This document shows, one piece after another, positions 6,624-47,787 of a DNA stretch of 54,758 bases. Made by a program: the position numbers and the translations under genes. Source of the DNA: a virus; the IMG/VR virus record IMGVR_UViG_3300025771_000034, positions 1 through 54,758 of that record, one strand, 5' to 3'. The stretch's first letter is position 1; the number at the start of each line of letters is the position of its first letter. Below the pieces are notes generated by a model, which was given only the letters and a program-made list of their open reading frames with translations, searched no databases and had not been told where the DNA came from.

Positions 6624-6891
6624 GCTTTCCTCGCTTCTTAGGCATTACCCTTACACGATCTTCATAAAAAGAACGCATACCACAACTAACACCCTTTTCT
6701 AATTCTACGCAATCAATCCAAGACCTATTATTCTCTGGATTAGTAACATGTTGGTGAAACTTAAACTTAGTACCCCAAATACCTTTTATCTTAATAATGT
6801 CCCCCTGATTTACTACCTTGCCTTCTTGTGTAGTAAAACTACCCTCTCTAATAAAGGGGTCGTTTATTTGCACCTTTTTGCGTCGTCCCAT
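6598..6891 (-). CDS. conserved small basic phage protein
   Basis: 97 residues, very basic at both ends (MGRRKKVQI and PKKRGKRVKRN). The middle (VNQGDIIKIKGIWGTKFKFHQHV ... SWIDCVELEKG) looks like a small beta-barrel such as an SH3/KOW-type fold. Closely similar proteins occur beside terminase genes in other actinophages as I recall, without known function; nucleic-acid binding is a reasonable inference from charge. It is the first gene behind the strong promoter at 6919-6947 and has a GGAG ribosome site. Confidence 0.75.
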   Translation of the reverse strand: MGRRKKVQINDPFIREGSFTTQEGKVVNQGDIIKIKGIWGTKFKFHQHVTNPENNRSWIDCVELEKGVSCGMRSFYEDRVRVMPKKRGKRVKRNRPS

Positions 6892-15045: not shown

Positions 15046-15996
15046 CTATTGTAATATGTAATGTATCTCGTTATCAAATGTATTTATAAATGTTTTTAGT
15101 TGTTCGTCATCCAAGTCAGAAACGTCTTTAACAGTATCAGGTAGATCGCCCTGTATTACTATGCTACCAAGGGACATTGATAACTTTTCTTTCATATCCC
15201 TTCCTGCGTCGTCGTTGTCTGACACTACGATTATACTAGTAAAATACTTTTTTAGCAAGTCCTTTTGCTTATTAGAAATATTTGATCCTAGTGTCGCCAA
15301 TGCCTTACCGCCCACTTGTTCAATGCGGATAGCATCAAAGGATGATTCTACCAGGAATATCTTGTTGGCAGCTTTGTTTCTTTGGATATTGAACATAGTT
15401 TTAGATCGTGGGAGTCCTGGGGTATTCTTGAACTCCTTGCCCTCTACAGACCTACCTACCATTCCTACACAAATACTATCAGGCGAGTAGATGGGAATGG
15501 TAATCATATCCTGCTTTTCTGAATATCCTATCTTATATTTTTCTACGCTATCTTTAGTAATGCCTCTGCCCTTTAGATAACCTGCTGCCCTATAAGACAC
15601 AAGAGCAGCATCATTTAGCCTTAATACGACTCCTTCATCAAACTCTGGATATTCTGGCTTTTTGTCTAATATCTTAAGCAAGTCAACCTCTATATTGTCT
15701 TCTGCTTTCTTGGAATAAATAAGACGCATTGCCTCAAAGTAATTTCTTTTTGAGCAGAACATTACGAGCTGAACTAAATCGCGTGACTCATGGCATCCAA
15801 AGCAATAGAAATCTCCTGATGTTTTAGATACTTCTGCTGCTGGTGTTCTATGGTTGTTATGATATGGGCAGTAAATTATAAAGTCTGACTCAATCTCTTG
15901 GACAATATCTATGCCGCAGGCCAGGAGTGTTCTTCTGACTTGCTCTTCTGAGTAGAATTCGATATTAGCTTGTTTTTGTCCACCCCATCGAACCAT
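15046..15996 (-). CDS. dnaG: DnaG-type DNA primase
   Basis: 316 residues, shorter than bacterial DnaG because it lacks the C-terminal helicase-interaction domain. A CHC2 zinc finger is present (Cys43, His46, Cys65, Cys68: CPYHNNHR ... FYCFGC), followed by a TOPRIM catalytic core with Glu217 in FLVESSFDAI and the DNDDAGRD acidic motif at about 260-267. It makes RNA primers for the DnaE polymerase. The start overlaps the upstream 107-residue gene by 88 bases, with GAAGAGGG before the ATG. Confidence 0.92.
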   Translation of the reverse strand: MVRWGGQKQANIEFYSEEQVRRTLLACGIDIVQEIESDFIIYCPYHNNHRTPAAEVSKTSGDFYCFGCHESRDLVQLVMFCSKRNYFEAMRLIYSKKAEDNIEVDLLKILDKKPEYPEFDEGVVLRLNDAALVSYRAAGYLKGRGITKDSVEKYKIGYSEKQDMITIPIYSPDSICVGMVGRSVEGKEFKNTPGLPRSKTMFNIQRNKAANKIFLVESSFDAIRIEQVGGKALATLGSNISNKQKDLLKKYFTSIIVVSDNDDAGRDMKEKLSMSLGSIVIQGDLPDTVKDVSDLDDEQLKTFINTFDNEIHYILQ

Positions 15997-35494: not shown

Positions 35495-35518
35495 TTATTC
35501 CTCCTAGAATATAATTAA

Positions 35519-35524
35519 ATTATA
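35519..35524 (-). promoter_or_regulatory. extended -10 promoter for chaperone/tape measure genes
   Basis: Minus strand TGC-TATAAT (hexamer 35524-35519). It lies right after the terminator at 35559-35581 and 17-18 bases before the ribosome site region of the chaperone gene. The -35 is poor. A second TAAAAT lies at 35542-35537 on the same strand. Confidence 0.5.
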
Positions 35525-38856: not shown

Positions 38857-39189
38857 CTATACCCCGTAGGCAATTGCCACTTCTTCTGGTGTAGCCATTC
38901 TTACCTTTGTAGAAATTTTCATCCATTCATCGGCCTGATCTGGCGTAACAATGTTATATCCCTTGTCTAGCCTTCCTAGAGCTGGGTGAACTAGTTTGCC
39001 CTCTGAATAAACAGCGGTTGGTTGTGGCTTAGGATCTTCCTTTTTTGGAGCAGTCTTAGAAGTGATTGTTTTAGAAGTTGTCTTCTTTGTTGACTTTGGC
39101 TTATCTTCTACCTCTACTTCTTTTTTATCTTGAAGTGATTTAGAAACATATGCTTTGTCATAAGAACTTCTAATAATATTATCGCTCAT
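38857..39189 (-). CDS. small capsid-region protein with Lys/Thr-rich linker
   Basis: 110 residues. The N-terminal half is low complexity (KSTKKTTSKTITSKTAPKK), a flexible linker. The C-terminal half is ordered (VHPALGRLDKGYNIVTPDQADEWMKI in pieces, then RMATPEEVAIAYGV). Position after the major capsid gene and the flexible linker suggest a head-associated or head-neck role. Function unknown. AGGAGGATTATA precedes the ATG. Confidence 0.65.
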   Translation of the reverse strand: MSDNIIRSSYDKAYVSKSLQDKKEVEVEDKPKSTKKTTSKTITSKTAPKKEDPKPQPTAVYSEGKLVHPALGRLDKGYNIVTPDQADEWMKISTKVRMATPEEVAIAYGV

Positions 39190-39206
39190 TATAATCCTCC
39201 TTTGTT

Positions 39207-43679: not shown

Positions 43680-45638
43680 CTAGTTTTTGACACTAGCTAG
43701 GTCACCAATATCAACTATCTCGCAAGATCCTGCAACACAACTTAGCTCTTGTGATCCAGTAGTTCCGTCTTCTGTCTCATAAACAGTAAGCATCTCCCAT
43801 GGAATATTTGTGGGCATATTCTTTAGTGCTTCCTCATATTCTTCCTTTGTGCAAGACTGGTAGGGTGCTTGCTTGTAAGAATGCTCAACTGCTGGCAAGA
43901 ATGAAACGCCACCGATTTGATCAAAGTTGTCATAGACCCATGCCCCTACGCTCATCCATTCATCTTCATGAACATTAATGGTGACAGATGGGTTATGCTC
44001 TGTCCAATGATTACGATAGGTTTTCCATAGTTCTAGATGATCAATGGCTGAAATATCTTCTGTAACTACCGCGTTCTTTGGAGCCTTTACGGGGAAGTAG
44101 AAAACGGTAGTATCATTTGGCTTCATAACATCTGGCTCATTTGGAATACCACAATCAATAAGGAATCGTGTTAGTGGATCTTTATTATCTCCACGAACAG
44201 AACGAATGTAATATTCTGAATACCATGGATGAATGCCACTTGATACACCAGTTAACTGCGATACTGTTCCAGAAGGCTTAACACAAGTAACAGACATGGA
44301 CTGATTAATTCCAAGTCTTTCAGCTTCCTTCTTATTTGTTTCTACTGCTGATTCACGGAGATTATCTAATAGAGAAGATAGATTAGCATTATTATTTGAT
44401 GTTAGCTTATTTCCATAAATACCTGTGAGTGATACCCCAAGTAGTCTTTCCTCCTCGCAGTTATCTTTCCATGACTTACGAATATACTTAAAGTTTGTAA
44501 GAGTAGATTGCCAGGTTCCAAAGATGGAGGCGAGTTCTACCTTCTTCTTAAGATCTTCTTCTGTATCAGAAGCTTCAATAATTACCTCTGTTAGATTACA
44601 AAATTCATTGGGTCGTAGAAGAATTTCGCCACATGGGTTGGTTCCTGCTACCTTAGAAGAATCACGACGACCGAAACTATCAATGTGCTTGCGAACGCTA
44701 TCAAGGTTATAAATTCCTCTTTCCCCTGATTTTGACTCATAAAGGTTTCTCCACTCACGCAGAAACTGCGCTGTATTTGGCTTCATGTTGTAAACAGCAG
44801 AGTTATTTGCTAGAGCACGCTGGCCTTCATTCTCCCACCAGTTTCCACTCTTTGCCTTTGCCATTTCAAAGTCATCAAGGTTGGACAACGAGATAAGTGC
44901 AGAGCGACGAACGCCACCTACAACAACTACCTCTCCTATTTTACACATAATATCGTGTGCTTCAATAGGCTTAAGTCTGCGTCCCGCTGCATTTCTAAAT
45001 ACATCGACAGTAAACTGGAATAGTGCATGTAGTGGCTCTGGGCCTGATGCACGACCACCAAAAGTCTTAAGCCTTGCTCCTGCTGGACGAACCTTTGTCA
45101 TATCCCAATTAGGGATCTGCCCCTGATAAAGAAGTGCAATAAGTTCTTTGTATGCTTTAGCCCAACCAAGCTTAGAGTCCTCAACAACGATGGTTGTTCC
45201 TGTTGGAAACATTTGTTCTGCTACAACGGGTAGTTGGTCTGTATATTTTTGCTCAACACTAAATCCAACTCCTGTACCATTCATCAAAATATACATAGCC
45301 TCATCGAATGCTCTTGGGCTATCAACCGCAATAAATGAGCAGTTGTAGGCAGCAATGTTATCACGCTCAAGTGCTGGGCCTGCCGTCATCATAGCACGCA
45401 TAGAAGGCATGATCTTATGATTAATAATGGCATCACGAACTTCATCAAAAATTGGTGCACTATCTTTATATTCGTAGTTGTTGACAAGATGACTCTTCAT
45501 AAAGTTCATAAGTCTATCTACTGTTTCCACCCATGTCTCTCGCCTATTTTCTTCCTCCATCCACCTGGCGTATCTGCTGATGTGGATGAAATTTCTGTAG
45601 TGATCCTTTATCGAACCGTTATTATTAATGAGAGACAA
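43680..45638 (-). CDS. nrdJ: class II (adenosylcobalamin-dependent) ribonucleotide reductase
   Basis: 652 residues of the monomeric RTPR type, about 90 shorter than the Lactobacillus enzyme. Cys100 (YNCSF), Cys336 and Glu338 (NPCGEI), Cys347 (NEFCNL) and the C-terminal Cys634/Cys639 (CVAGSC) match in spacing the redox pair, thiyl cysteine and tail pair of that family. It reduces ribonucleoside triphosphates to deoxy forms using a B12-derived radical, so the phage depends on host cobalamin. The start is a TTG at 45638 with AAAGGAAG nine bases upstream. Its promoter overlaps the divergent gene. Confidence 0.93.
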   Translation of the reverse strand: MSLINNNGSIKDHYRNFIHISRYARWMEEENRRETWVETVDRLMNFMKSHLVNNYEYKDSAPIFDEVRDAIINHKIMPSMRAMMTAGPALERDNIAAYNCSFIAVDSPRAFDEAMYILMNGTGVGFSVEQKYTDQLPVVAEQMFPTGTTIVVEDSKLGWAKAYKELIALLYQGQIPNWDMTKVRPAGARLKTFGGRASGPEPLHALFQFTVDVFRNAAGRRLKPIEAHDIMCKIGEVVVVGGVRRSALISLSNLDDFEMAKAKSGNWWENEGQRALANNSAVYNMKPNTAQFLREWRNLYESKSGERGIYNLDSVRKHIDSFGRRDSSKVAGTNPCGEILLRPNEFCNLTEVIIEASDTEEDLKKKVELASIFGTWQSTLTNFKYIRKSWKDNCEEERLLGVSLTGIYGNKLTSNNNANLSSLLDNLRESAVETNKKEAERLGINQSMSVTCVKPSGTVSQLTGVSSGIHPWYSEYYIRSVRGDNKDPLTRFLIDCGIPNEPDVMKPNDTTVFYFPVKAPKNAVVTEDISAIDHLELWKTYRNHWTEHNPSVTINVHEDEWMSVGAWVYDNFDQIGGVSFLPAVEHSYKQAPYQSCTKEEYEEALKNMPTNIPWEMLTVYETEDGTTGSQELSCVAGSCEIVDIGDLASVKN

Positions 45639-45653
45639 TTAAAAACACTTCCT

Positions 45654-45680
45654 TTGATAGATTTATTAGTAAGATATAAT
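45654..45680 (+). promoter_or_regulatory. promoter of the plus-strand 76-residue gene
   Basis: TTGATA (45654-45659) with 15 bases, or TTTGAT with 16, then a perfect TATAAT (45675-45680). The predicted start is near 45687 and TTAAGGAG lies seven bases before the ATG at 45708. Confidence 0.7.
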
Positions 45681-45692
45681 TCTATCAGAATT
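45678..45692. repeat. palindrome spanning two divergent -10 elements
   Basis: AATTCT-ATC-AGAATT, perfect 6-bp arms. It covers the end of the plus-strand -10 (45675-45680) and the minus-strand -10 (45679-45684), so a bound protein would block both promoters. Confidence 0.6.
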
Positions 45693-45706
45693 TTAAGGAG
45701 AGTCAA
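45679..45706 (-). promoter_or_regulatory. promoter of the ribonucleotide reductase gene
   Basis: Minus strand: TTGACT (45706-45701), 16 bases, TAGAAT (45684-45679). Predicted start near 45672, leader about 34 bases with AAAGGAAG before the TTG. It overlaps the plus-strand promoter almost completely. Confidence 0.65.
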
Positions 45707-45707
45707 C

Positions 45708-45938
45708 ATGGAACTAACAATTCAAGAGGTACATACTTATAACGATTTGATAAACAAAGGTGAGGCCGAACCACTTGATCTACCTGGCTGTGACACAAGT
45801 GAATTTGGGGGGCTGGTGATACCTAGACTAGATGAAGATGATCGTGTATACTTTCACGATCTTGCGTCGGGCGTTAATGTCTACCCAGGAATAAACACAA
45901 TAGAAAAAATCAAGAAAGCTATTGACAAAATAAAGTAA
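45708..45938 (+). CDS. 76-residue acidic protein, possible regulator
   Basis: The ATG at 45708 with AAGGAG at ideal distance is the start; the open frame extends farther upstream only by chance through the promoter. The protein (MELTIQEVHTYNDLINKGEAE, LDLPGCDTSEFGGLVIPRLDED in pieces, and a basic helix IEKIKKAIDKIK) is compact and acidic with one cysteine. It is one of only two genes on this strand. No family recognised. It could act on the shared control region, but I see no HTH. Confidence 0.75.
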   Translation: MELTIQEVHTYNDLINKGEAEPLDLPGCDTSEFGGLVIPRLDEDDRVYFHDLASGVNVYPGINTIEKIKKAIDKIK

Positions 45939-45974
45939 TCAAGATACCATGGATGGGTGGTCAGGGAGGGAATA

Positions 45975-46023
45975 GATCTAATATATAAATATTAATAATA
46001 TATAAATATATATAATATAGATC
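45975..46023. repeat. AT-only repeat tract bounded by GATCTA/TAGATC
   Basis: Inverted ends GATCTA (45975-45980) and TAGATC (46018-46023) enclose 37 bases of pure A/T. Two direct copies of ATATATAAATAT (45981-45992 and 45998-46009) lie 17 bases apart. It is a candidate for a melting region, an iteron-like binding site or simply an AT-rich promoter-upstream region. The rest of the 45939-46115 gap holds the promoter and leader of the next gene. Confidence 0.6.
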
Positions 46024-46053
46024 ACATTCCATTCATAAATTCTGTTATTTCAT

Positions 46054-46082
46054 TTGACATACATTTTTTTATTATGTATGCT
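46054..46082 (+). promoter_or_regulatory. promoter of the secreted lytic enzyme gene
   Basis: TTGACA (46054-46059), 17 bases, TATGCT (46077-46082). The leader is about 27 bases and carries AGGAGG six bases from the ATG. Confidence 0.75.
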
Positions 46083-46115
46083 AGATGAACTGTTGTCACC
46101 GTCAGGAGGAAACAG

Positions 46116-46637
46116 ATGATAACAAAACTGATAGGAGGTTTGGTAGGAATGATGATGTTATTTGCAACCCCTGCCTACGCCTCTGATGCGGTCGATGCTA
46201 AATCTGCAATAACCGCGACGGCGAAAGTCGTGTATATCAGCCAAGAGCATAAGTATGCTAGGTCTGATACCGCACAGGATATGAAGGGCTATGAGCCATC
46301 TTTGTATCGCGGTAAATGGTTCGATTCTAAATGGGAAAATTCTCGTAAATGTATTATGAAGCGTGAATCCCGTTTTTCTTATCGGGCCGCCAATAAGTCA
46401 TCCTCGGCAAGAGGAGCCTATCAATTCTTGGACTCTCAATGGAGAGATGGGCTTGTTTGGATGATGTTAAAGGAATCCAAGAAAACAAAAGATGGTTTGT
46501 CAGCTGAAATTAAGACTTTATTTGATAAACCAATTCATAAATGGTCAAGGTATTATCAAGACCGTGCTTTTTACACCGCTTGGCAAGATGGTAGTGGCAA
46601 GAAGCATTGGTATTATCCTGGTCATAACTGTTACTAA
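46116..46637 (+). CDS. secreted lytic transglycosylase/Rpf-like protein
   Basis: 173 residues. A signal peptide (residues 1-22, MITKLIGGLVGMMMLFATPAYA) is followed by a linker and a lysozyme-like domain. The domain has KCIMKRESRFSYRAANKSSS with Glu84 as the likely catalytic acid, ARGAYQFLDSQW at 98-109, and a C-terminal HNCY. Cys79 and Cys172 probably form a disulfide. It should cut peptidoglycan outside the cytoplasm. The strand, strong promoter and terminator set it apart from its neighbours, and its GC-richer codons hint at acquisition from the host. It is the only lysis-type gene seen here. Confidence 0.8.
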   Translation: MITKLIGGLVGMMMLFATPAYASDAVDAKSAITATAKVVYISQEHKYARSDTAQDMKGYEPSLYRGKWFDSKWENSRKCIMKRESRFSYRAANKSSSARGAYQFLDSQWRDGLVWMMLKESKKTKDGLSAEIKTLFDKPIHKWSRYYQDRAFYTAWQDGSGKKHWYYPGHNCY

Positions 46638-46645
46638 ATAGATTA

Positions 46646-46698
46646 GCGGGGCAGAAAACCTAATTCAAAAGGTGGCAACATTCTGCCCTGCTTTTCTA
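46646..46698. terminator. bidirectional terminator between convergent genes
   Basis: GCGGGGCAGAA (46646-46656) pairs with TTCTGCCCTGC (46681-46691), 11 bp with one G-U, around a 24-base loop that itself contains an ACCT/AGGT hairpin. TTTTCTATT follows on the plus strand. It ends the lytic enzyme gene and overlaps the end of the convergent glycosyltransferase gene at 46696. Confidence 0.85.
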
Positions 46699-47787
46699 TT
46701 GCTCTTTAATTTGATGAATTACTTCATCCCATTCAGATCTACGAACTTCCATTGTTTGGTATTTTTTAATGCCCTCAAGATTTCTTTCTACATCTTCTTT
46801 TCTTGTATTGGGATTTAAAAGTTCTTCAGAGTGTTGCAACCATTCCTCTTGATTTCTTGCTACCCTTCCTACCCCTTGCTGCTCTAAAAGCTCGTACTCT
46901 GGACTCCAGGACGCTATAAAAGGCACACCAGCAGCAGCATATTCCAAACCTTTAATAGAAGACTTTGCATGATTAAATCCAACATCATTTAGTGGAACTA
47001 AGCCAACATCAATTTTTCTAAAAAGACTTGGATACTTACTAATTTTTTCCATAGCCTGTTTTGTTGACTTAACAGCTTTTGGAATTCCTAGTTGGTCCCT
47101 AGCCTCTTTTGCATTTTTAATTGCTCCAGAATGATGAAATGTTAAATGATTTTTTTCTAAGAAATTTCCAAACCACGGAGATAATTGTTCAAGGTCATTA
47201 GATCTCCATGGAGTTGCACCAACCCAACCAAATTGCGGCAGCCATCGTGAGTGGTCTTTTCTTTGCGTCCATCTATCCAAATCTATACCATTACGAACCA
47301 TGTATACGTTTTTATATCCTTTTTCATTCTTATAAAAATCATATAGGAATGGGGTAGAGGTAATAATTGCATCTGCATTTTCAATGATATACATATAATG
47401 CTCACGATTATTACGAGGATTTACTTCTGGGTCTGTCATTTTATGAGCAAGGTTTGATTTTGATAATCCTTCAAACCAGTCATCAATATCCACCGCTATT
47501 TTTTGTCCTAGTTTTTTTGCCTCATTTATTTTGCTAGCAATAGACTCAAGCATAATTAGTTTTAATACAATAACATCCCAACCATGAATAGCCTTGTTGT
47601 CTGGAACCAATAATCCAAATCCATGGTCTTCATTCCATCCAGGGAATCCAATTCCTACATCCCATCCATTTTTTTCAAGCTCTTTCATTGGAAGGTAGCA
47701 TCTGTACCAGGCGCACCCATTTGGTTCTACTGGATTACTGCCTAAAGTAAAGTCATATGTTAAAAAAGATACTGTTGGTTTTGCCAT
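46696..47787 (-). CDS. GT-B glycosyltransferase (GT4-like)
   Basis: 363 residues. The N-terminal half binds acceptor (NPVEPNGCAWYRCYLPMKELEKNGW in pieces, KIAVDIDDWF). The C-terminal half has the donor-binding motif SIKGLEYAAAGVPFIASWSPEYELL with the conserved Glu, and VRNGIDLDRW near 165. This is the GT4 layout. It probably modifies phage DNA, capsid or tail proteins or a host surface glycan. It is the last gene before the convergent terminator and has its own 17-bp-spaced promoter. Confidence 0.85.
   Translation of the reverse strand: MAKPTVSFLTYDFTLGSNPVEPNGCAWYRCYLPMKELEKNGWDVGIGFPGWNEDHGFGLLVPDNKAIHGWDVIVLKLIMLESIASKINEAKKLGQKIAVDIDDWFEGLSKSNLAHKMTDPEVNPRNNREHYMYIIENADAIITSTPFLYDFYKNEKGYKNVYMVRNGIDLDRWTQRKDHSRWLPQFGWVGATPWRSNDLEQLSPWFGNFLEKNHLTFHHSGAIKNAKEARDQLGIPKAVKSTKQAMEKISKYPSLFRKIDVGLVPLNDVGFNHAKSSIKGLEYAAAGVPFIASWSPEYELLEQQGVGRVARNQEEWLQHSEELLNPNTRKEDVERNLEGIKKYQTMEVRRSEWDEVIHQIKEQ

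Follow-up and report, generated by a model that had tools for sequence, protein, structure and literature searches.

A putative compact bidirectional promoter region between nrdJ and a small zinc-ribbon-like gene in an uncultivated phage

How are two divergent genes transcribed from an intergenic gap of only 69 bases? The question is raised by an uncultivated phage, IMG/VR record IMGVR_UViG_3300025771_000034, of which positions 1 to 54,758 were analysed; this whole stretch of 54,758 nucleotides is referred to below as the window. On its minus strand lies nrdJ (43680-45638, TTG start), encoding an adenosylcobalamin-dependent (class II) ribonucleotide reductase, whose product matches PHROG 367 (E 1.8e-191), TIGR02505 (E 8.1e-99, just below the curated cut-off), and PF21995, the B12-dependent insertion domain. 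It is preceded by a Shine-Dalgarno-like AAAGGAAG (45649-45656, minus strand), which is kept in related leaders. The opposite strand carries a gene for a 76-residue protein (45708-45938) belonging to a zinc-ribbon-like family, most of whose cysteines it has lost. An earlier note on this DNA described the gap as a switch made of two interlocked promoters with a common palindrome. The host is likely to be actinobacterial, since the portal protein encoded in the window is about 53% identical to the portal of Streptomyces phages of the Stanwilliamsviridae. An Rfam search of the gap and the downstream DNA gave no match.

The comparison rests on related loci collected from viral contigs. The 76-residue protein used as query gave 12 loci and nrdJ gave 80, and a second nrdJ query, taken from a locus lacking the small gene, returned a further 80 that partly overlapped the first set. 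A homologue of the 76-residue gene was found divergent from nrdJ in 81 of the 129 nrdJ loci examined. Once duplicates had been removed, promoters could be compared in 50 loci possessing the small gene and 42 lacking it.

The nrdJ promoter is strongly supported by this comparison, and is the firmest part of the whole finding. The minus strand reads TTGACT (45706-45701), 16 nt, and TAGAAT (45684-45679), with an extended TG before the -10, the complete extended element being TGATAGAAT (45679-45687); transcription is predicted to start near 45672. When the gap was shuffled 300 times, no shuffle reached the score of this promoter. All 50 unique loci in which the small gene diverges from nrdJ have the pattern TTGnnn, 16-18 nt, TA[G/C/A]AAT at nrdJ, and in 45 of them the spacer is 17 nt. 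The -35 and -10 that the earlier note had assigned to this strand are therefore both present and conserved. In many loci with the small gene, the nrdJ promoter has a TTGnnn -35 and no TG.

The promoter of the 76-residue gene is also supported, by a more complex record. The plus-strand pair of the earlier note consists of TTGATA (45654-45659), 15 nt, and TATAAT (45675-45680). This TATAAT, candidate A, is the best-scoring plus-strand -10 of the window (p 0.027 against shuffles of the gap). The TTGATA overlaps both the nrdJ ribosome-binding region and a second candidate, B, the extended -10 TGATAGATT (45655-45663, plus strand), from which transcription would start near 45670. Most relatives carry TGnTA[G/A]AAT at this place. 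At the site of candidate A, several close relatives read TATAAT or TACAAT and the group of locus L025 has a degraded GTCAAT, and the spacing from TTGATA to the proximal -10, 15 nt in the window, is variable among relatives. The plus-strand elements are present in the window as the earlier note had described them, but what relatives retain is the extended -10 at 45655-45663 and usually not TATAAT. In the window itself, candidate B is off-consensus (TAGATT), although it is intact in the other members of the clade, and TATAAT is perfect, so candidate A, candidate B, or both may be in use there.

The clade-specific pattern for the extended -10 was framed after the alignments had been viewed, and the count was then redone with a generic definition: TG, any base, and a hexamer with A at position 2, T at position 6, and at least four of six consensus bases, sought on the small-gene strand within 70 nt of nrdJ, with the expectation taken from shuffles. 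Such an element occurs in 50 of 50 loci that have the gene, against 6.8 expected; where the gene is missing, 6 of 42 loci have one, against 6.5 expected, which is the chance level. Since the loci are related to one another, these counts do not represent 50 independent events, and the turnover of the opposing element with its retention is a stronger argument than the counts. On a quick NrdJ tree, the element takes three forms (TGnTA[G/A]AAT, TGnGATAAT, and TGnTATCAT), several switches between forms are required, and it is always retained in loci with the gene. The tree also nests, with moderate support, a clade lacking the small gene (L021, L022, and L040-L042) among loci that have it; in this clade no extended -10 opposes nrdJ, whose own promoter has an extended -10. 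These results bear on the idea that nrdJ alone has a genuine promoter in the gap, the small gene being read from a promoter further upstream, inside nrdJ, and the plus-strand -10s being chance products of A+T-rich DNA. Many relatives indeed have no plus-strand element that scores well singly, and promoters of the type found at locus L043 do not beat shuffles when scored in this way; the support for these comes from conservation. Given the presence of the extended -10 in every locus with the gene against its chance-level frequency in those without, we regard the nrdJ-only explanation as very unlikely.

How are the two promoters arranged relative to each other? As the earlier note had it, the two -10 hexamers of the window overlap, having positions 45679-45680 in common, and each -35 lies within the leader of the opposite gene, the TTGACT of nrdJ (45701-45706) within that of the 76-residue gene. 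Over the unique loci, the offset between the -10 hexamers is -2 bp (six loci), 3 bp (13), 11-12 bp (20), or 14-15 bp (10), one further locus being an outlier that is probably mis-assigned. The predicted starts are 15, 10, or about 2 bp apart across the loci; in the window they are separated by 15 bp if candidate A is used and by about -2 bp with candidate B. From these distances, polymerase footprints would overlap at every offset found, and no fixed interlock is conserved. Because the offset drifts among lineages, what is conserved is the presence of both promoters in one short gap, and the coupling of nrdJ to the small gene through opposed promoters, proposed in the earlier note, is kept in 50 distinct loci. 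The window contains five opposed promoter-like pairs (at least 10 of 12 matches, -10s within 15 bp), whereas a shuffle yields 0.8 on average. The four others lie at 15230-15245, 35510-35524, 39177-39193, and 46071-46082.

A more specific variant of the two-way promoter is that the exact pair of the earlier note is the working one, so that TATAAT (45675-45680) and TAGAAT (45684-45679) would together make up one near-symmetric -10 shared by both directions, the starts would be separated by about 15 bp, and the window's candidate B would be a relic. In favour of this variant, TATAAT matches the -10 consensus and scores highest among the plus-strand elements of the window, six unique loci share the exact -2 offset with TGATATCAT, and the window's copy of candidate B departs from consensus. 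Yet the spacer is 15 nt long, the TG is missing, TATAAT is lost (GTCAAT) in the L025 group, where the small gene is still present, and candidate B is intact in the other clade members. We regard this variant as a fair possibility, though less likely than not. At the other extreme of geometry, a face-to-face pair with starts within about 2 bp might be a true either/or switch, opposing nrdJ and the head genes to a small regulatory protein of zinc-ribbon-like type, with the exclusion kept while the geometry drifts; we consider this very improbable.

The palindrome AATTCT-ATC-AGAATT, which the earlier note had seen spanning both -10s, is exact in the window (AATTCTATCAGAATT, 45678-45692, the sole perfect match to AATTCTNNNAGAATT there). 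Its perfection is nevertheless confined to the window and to its nearest relatives (L014-L017), nearly all other unique loci pairing at one to four of six positions. One half corresponds to the conserved extended -10 of nrdJ, and the other half is free to vary. Perfect palindromes of this 6-3-6 format are also common by chance: one arises anywhere in the shuffled gap with p about 0.04, and the window contains 27 against 14-27 in its shuffles. The palindrome was therefore dropped as an operator, on its poor conservation and these chance-level counts; it is probably a side effect of having two A+T-rich -10 regions. Conservation in related phages, which the earlier note had named as a check, thus holds for the promoters and fails for the palindrome. 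Host NrdR was the other regulator to consider, and NrdR boxes have a consensus of about ACACWATATATWGNGT. With up to three mismatches to this consensus, no match was found from 45000 to 46700, hence none in the gap, and the control by NrdR that had been envisaged finds no box there to act through.

Could the 76-residue protein itself be such a regulator? Searches of Pfam, PHROGs, and NCBIfam with the window protein gave no match, and the PDB gave nothing significant, by sequence or by fold; the family of the protein, scanned against genome contigs, has no relative there. The family profile matches gp10 of BillNye (58 bits) and gp12 of Francob (40 bits), both Streptomyces phages. Relatives that bear cysteines weakly resemble the CHC2 zinc ribbon of DnaG primase (PF01807, E 0.0006-0.004, below the curated cut-off); the window protein gives no match to that domain but aligns with these relatives. 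By this sequence homology, it is a member of a small phage zinc-ribbon-like family. The metal-binding cysteines themselves are missing, as one cysteine is left and the CxxC knuckle is replaced. Within the family, Francob gp12 has four cysteines (CPxC, CxxC), most uncultivated members three, and the window protein one, a stepwise loss. An AlphaFold2 model (pLDDT 86.9) consists of a helix, a beta hairpin, and a helix, and resembles small proteins of Streptomyces phage Muntaha and of uncultured phages. Nothing suggests a helix-turn-helix regulator, and none is obvious in the model. In BillNye (locus L255, 5989-6204), the homologue is flanked by a tRNA-Thr cluster and thyX, and here too genes of nucleotide metabolism are close by.

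These observations bear on the proposal of a dedicated switch, in which the palindrome would be the binding site of a regulator (host NrdR or the 76-residue protein) that picks nrdJ or the small gene. Binding to nucleic acid or to polymerase is known for some zinc-ribbon proteins, and both the membership of the small protein in such a family and the position of a perfect 15-bp palindrome over both -10s would fit the proposal. They are outweighed by the restriction of the perfect palindrome to one small clade, the absence of an NrdR-like box from the gap, the loss of metal cysteines and the lack of an obvious helix-turn-helix in the model, and the drift of promoter spacing among lineages, which together make a dedicated switch highly unlikely.

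Just past the 76-residue gene, another element was noticed on the plus strand (45922-46022). It comprises TTGACA, within the last codons of the gene, 17 nt, and TACCAT, with GGGTGGTCAGGGAGGGAATAGAT at the expected start site, followed by an A+T-rich tract. The G-rich GGGTGGTCAGGGAGGGAATAGAT motif recurs in 77 viral-contig stretches, many of them without nrdJ, and TTGACA with at most one mismatch is found 30-34 nt upstream of it at 33 of 50 unique sites. The element has no match in Rfam. It may represent a leader RNA, or else an origin at which replication is primed by transcription; GC skew near it tracks the coding strand and is uninformative as an origin marker. One contig with the G-rich motif (L153) also encodes an abiF RNA (RF03085) directly behind a tRNA gene, at 6777-6813.

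Taken together, the gap is probably a compact bidirectional promoter region of sigma70 type. The RNA polymerase of the host, with its housekeeping sigma factor, would initiate in both directions from the gap. As the two initiation complexes would overlap, a single DNA molecule would be read in one direction at a time, leading at most to mutual interference, and RNAs of both directions would be made across the population. The leftward RNA would also serve the closely packed head genes beyond nrdJ. The layout may have arisen because a short island of rightward genes breaks the leftward block, so that both units must restart in minimal space. Since this layout is conserved and the palindrome is not, the arrangement is better described as an economical two-way promoter than as a dedicated switch. 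The comparison reveals, in an uncultivated phage group, a two-way promoter that is retained while its exact geometry turns over, with the opposing promoter absent from a nested lineage that lacks the second gene. It also ties an unnamed family of small phage proteins to nrdJ.

Among known phages, the closest parallels are BillNye, Francob, and Wofford, Streptomyces phages of the Stanwilliamsviridae or near them, which likewise have nrdJ on one strand and a transglycosylase or hydrolase gene on the other, BillNye and Francob also having the small zinc-ribbon-like homologue on the strand opposite nrdJ. Their clusters differ in that one or two glycosyltransferase genes stand between nrdJ and the divergent point and, in BillNye and Francob, in that the small gene lies farther off, after tRNA genes. 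As for the promoters, the gap resembles the bidirectional promoters of bacteria described by Warman, Grainger and colleagues (PMC10268837, PMC12825309), in which opposed sigma70 promoters share or flank one -10 region: the two -10s of the window have 2 bp in common, all 50 loci with the gene show opposed elements, the gene pair is divergent, and the predicted starts lie within about 15 bp. Bacteria commonly have bidirectional promoters whose starts are separated by 7-25 bp (PMC10268837), a spacing of 18 bp being the most frequent, whereas candidate B in the window would give facing starts only about 2 bp apart. Unlike in the bacterial cases, the -10 offset here differs between relatives. In five E. 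coli bidirectional promoters tested, basal transcription was too low for polymerases to compete, and competition appeared once one direction was activated (PMC12825309). Of the one-promoter-at-a-time design of the earlier note, the predicted overlap of footprints stands, while the drifting promoter spacing and the weakness of published basal transcription argue against a dedicated switch. In its different offsets, and in the nested lineage without the opposing promoter, this phage group offers a usable set of natural variants on which the importance of polymerase competition at bidirectional promoters could be tested.
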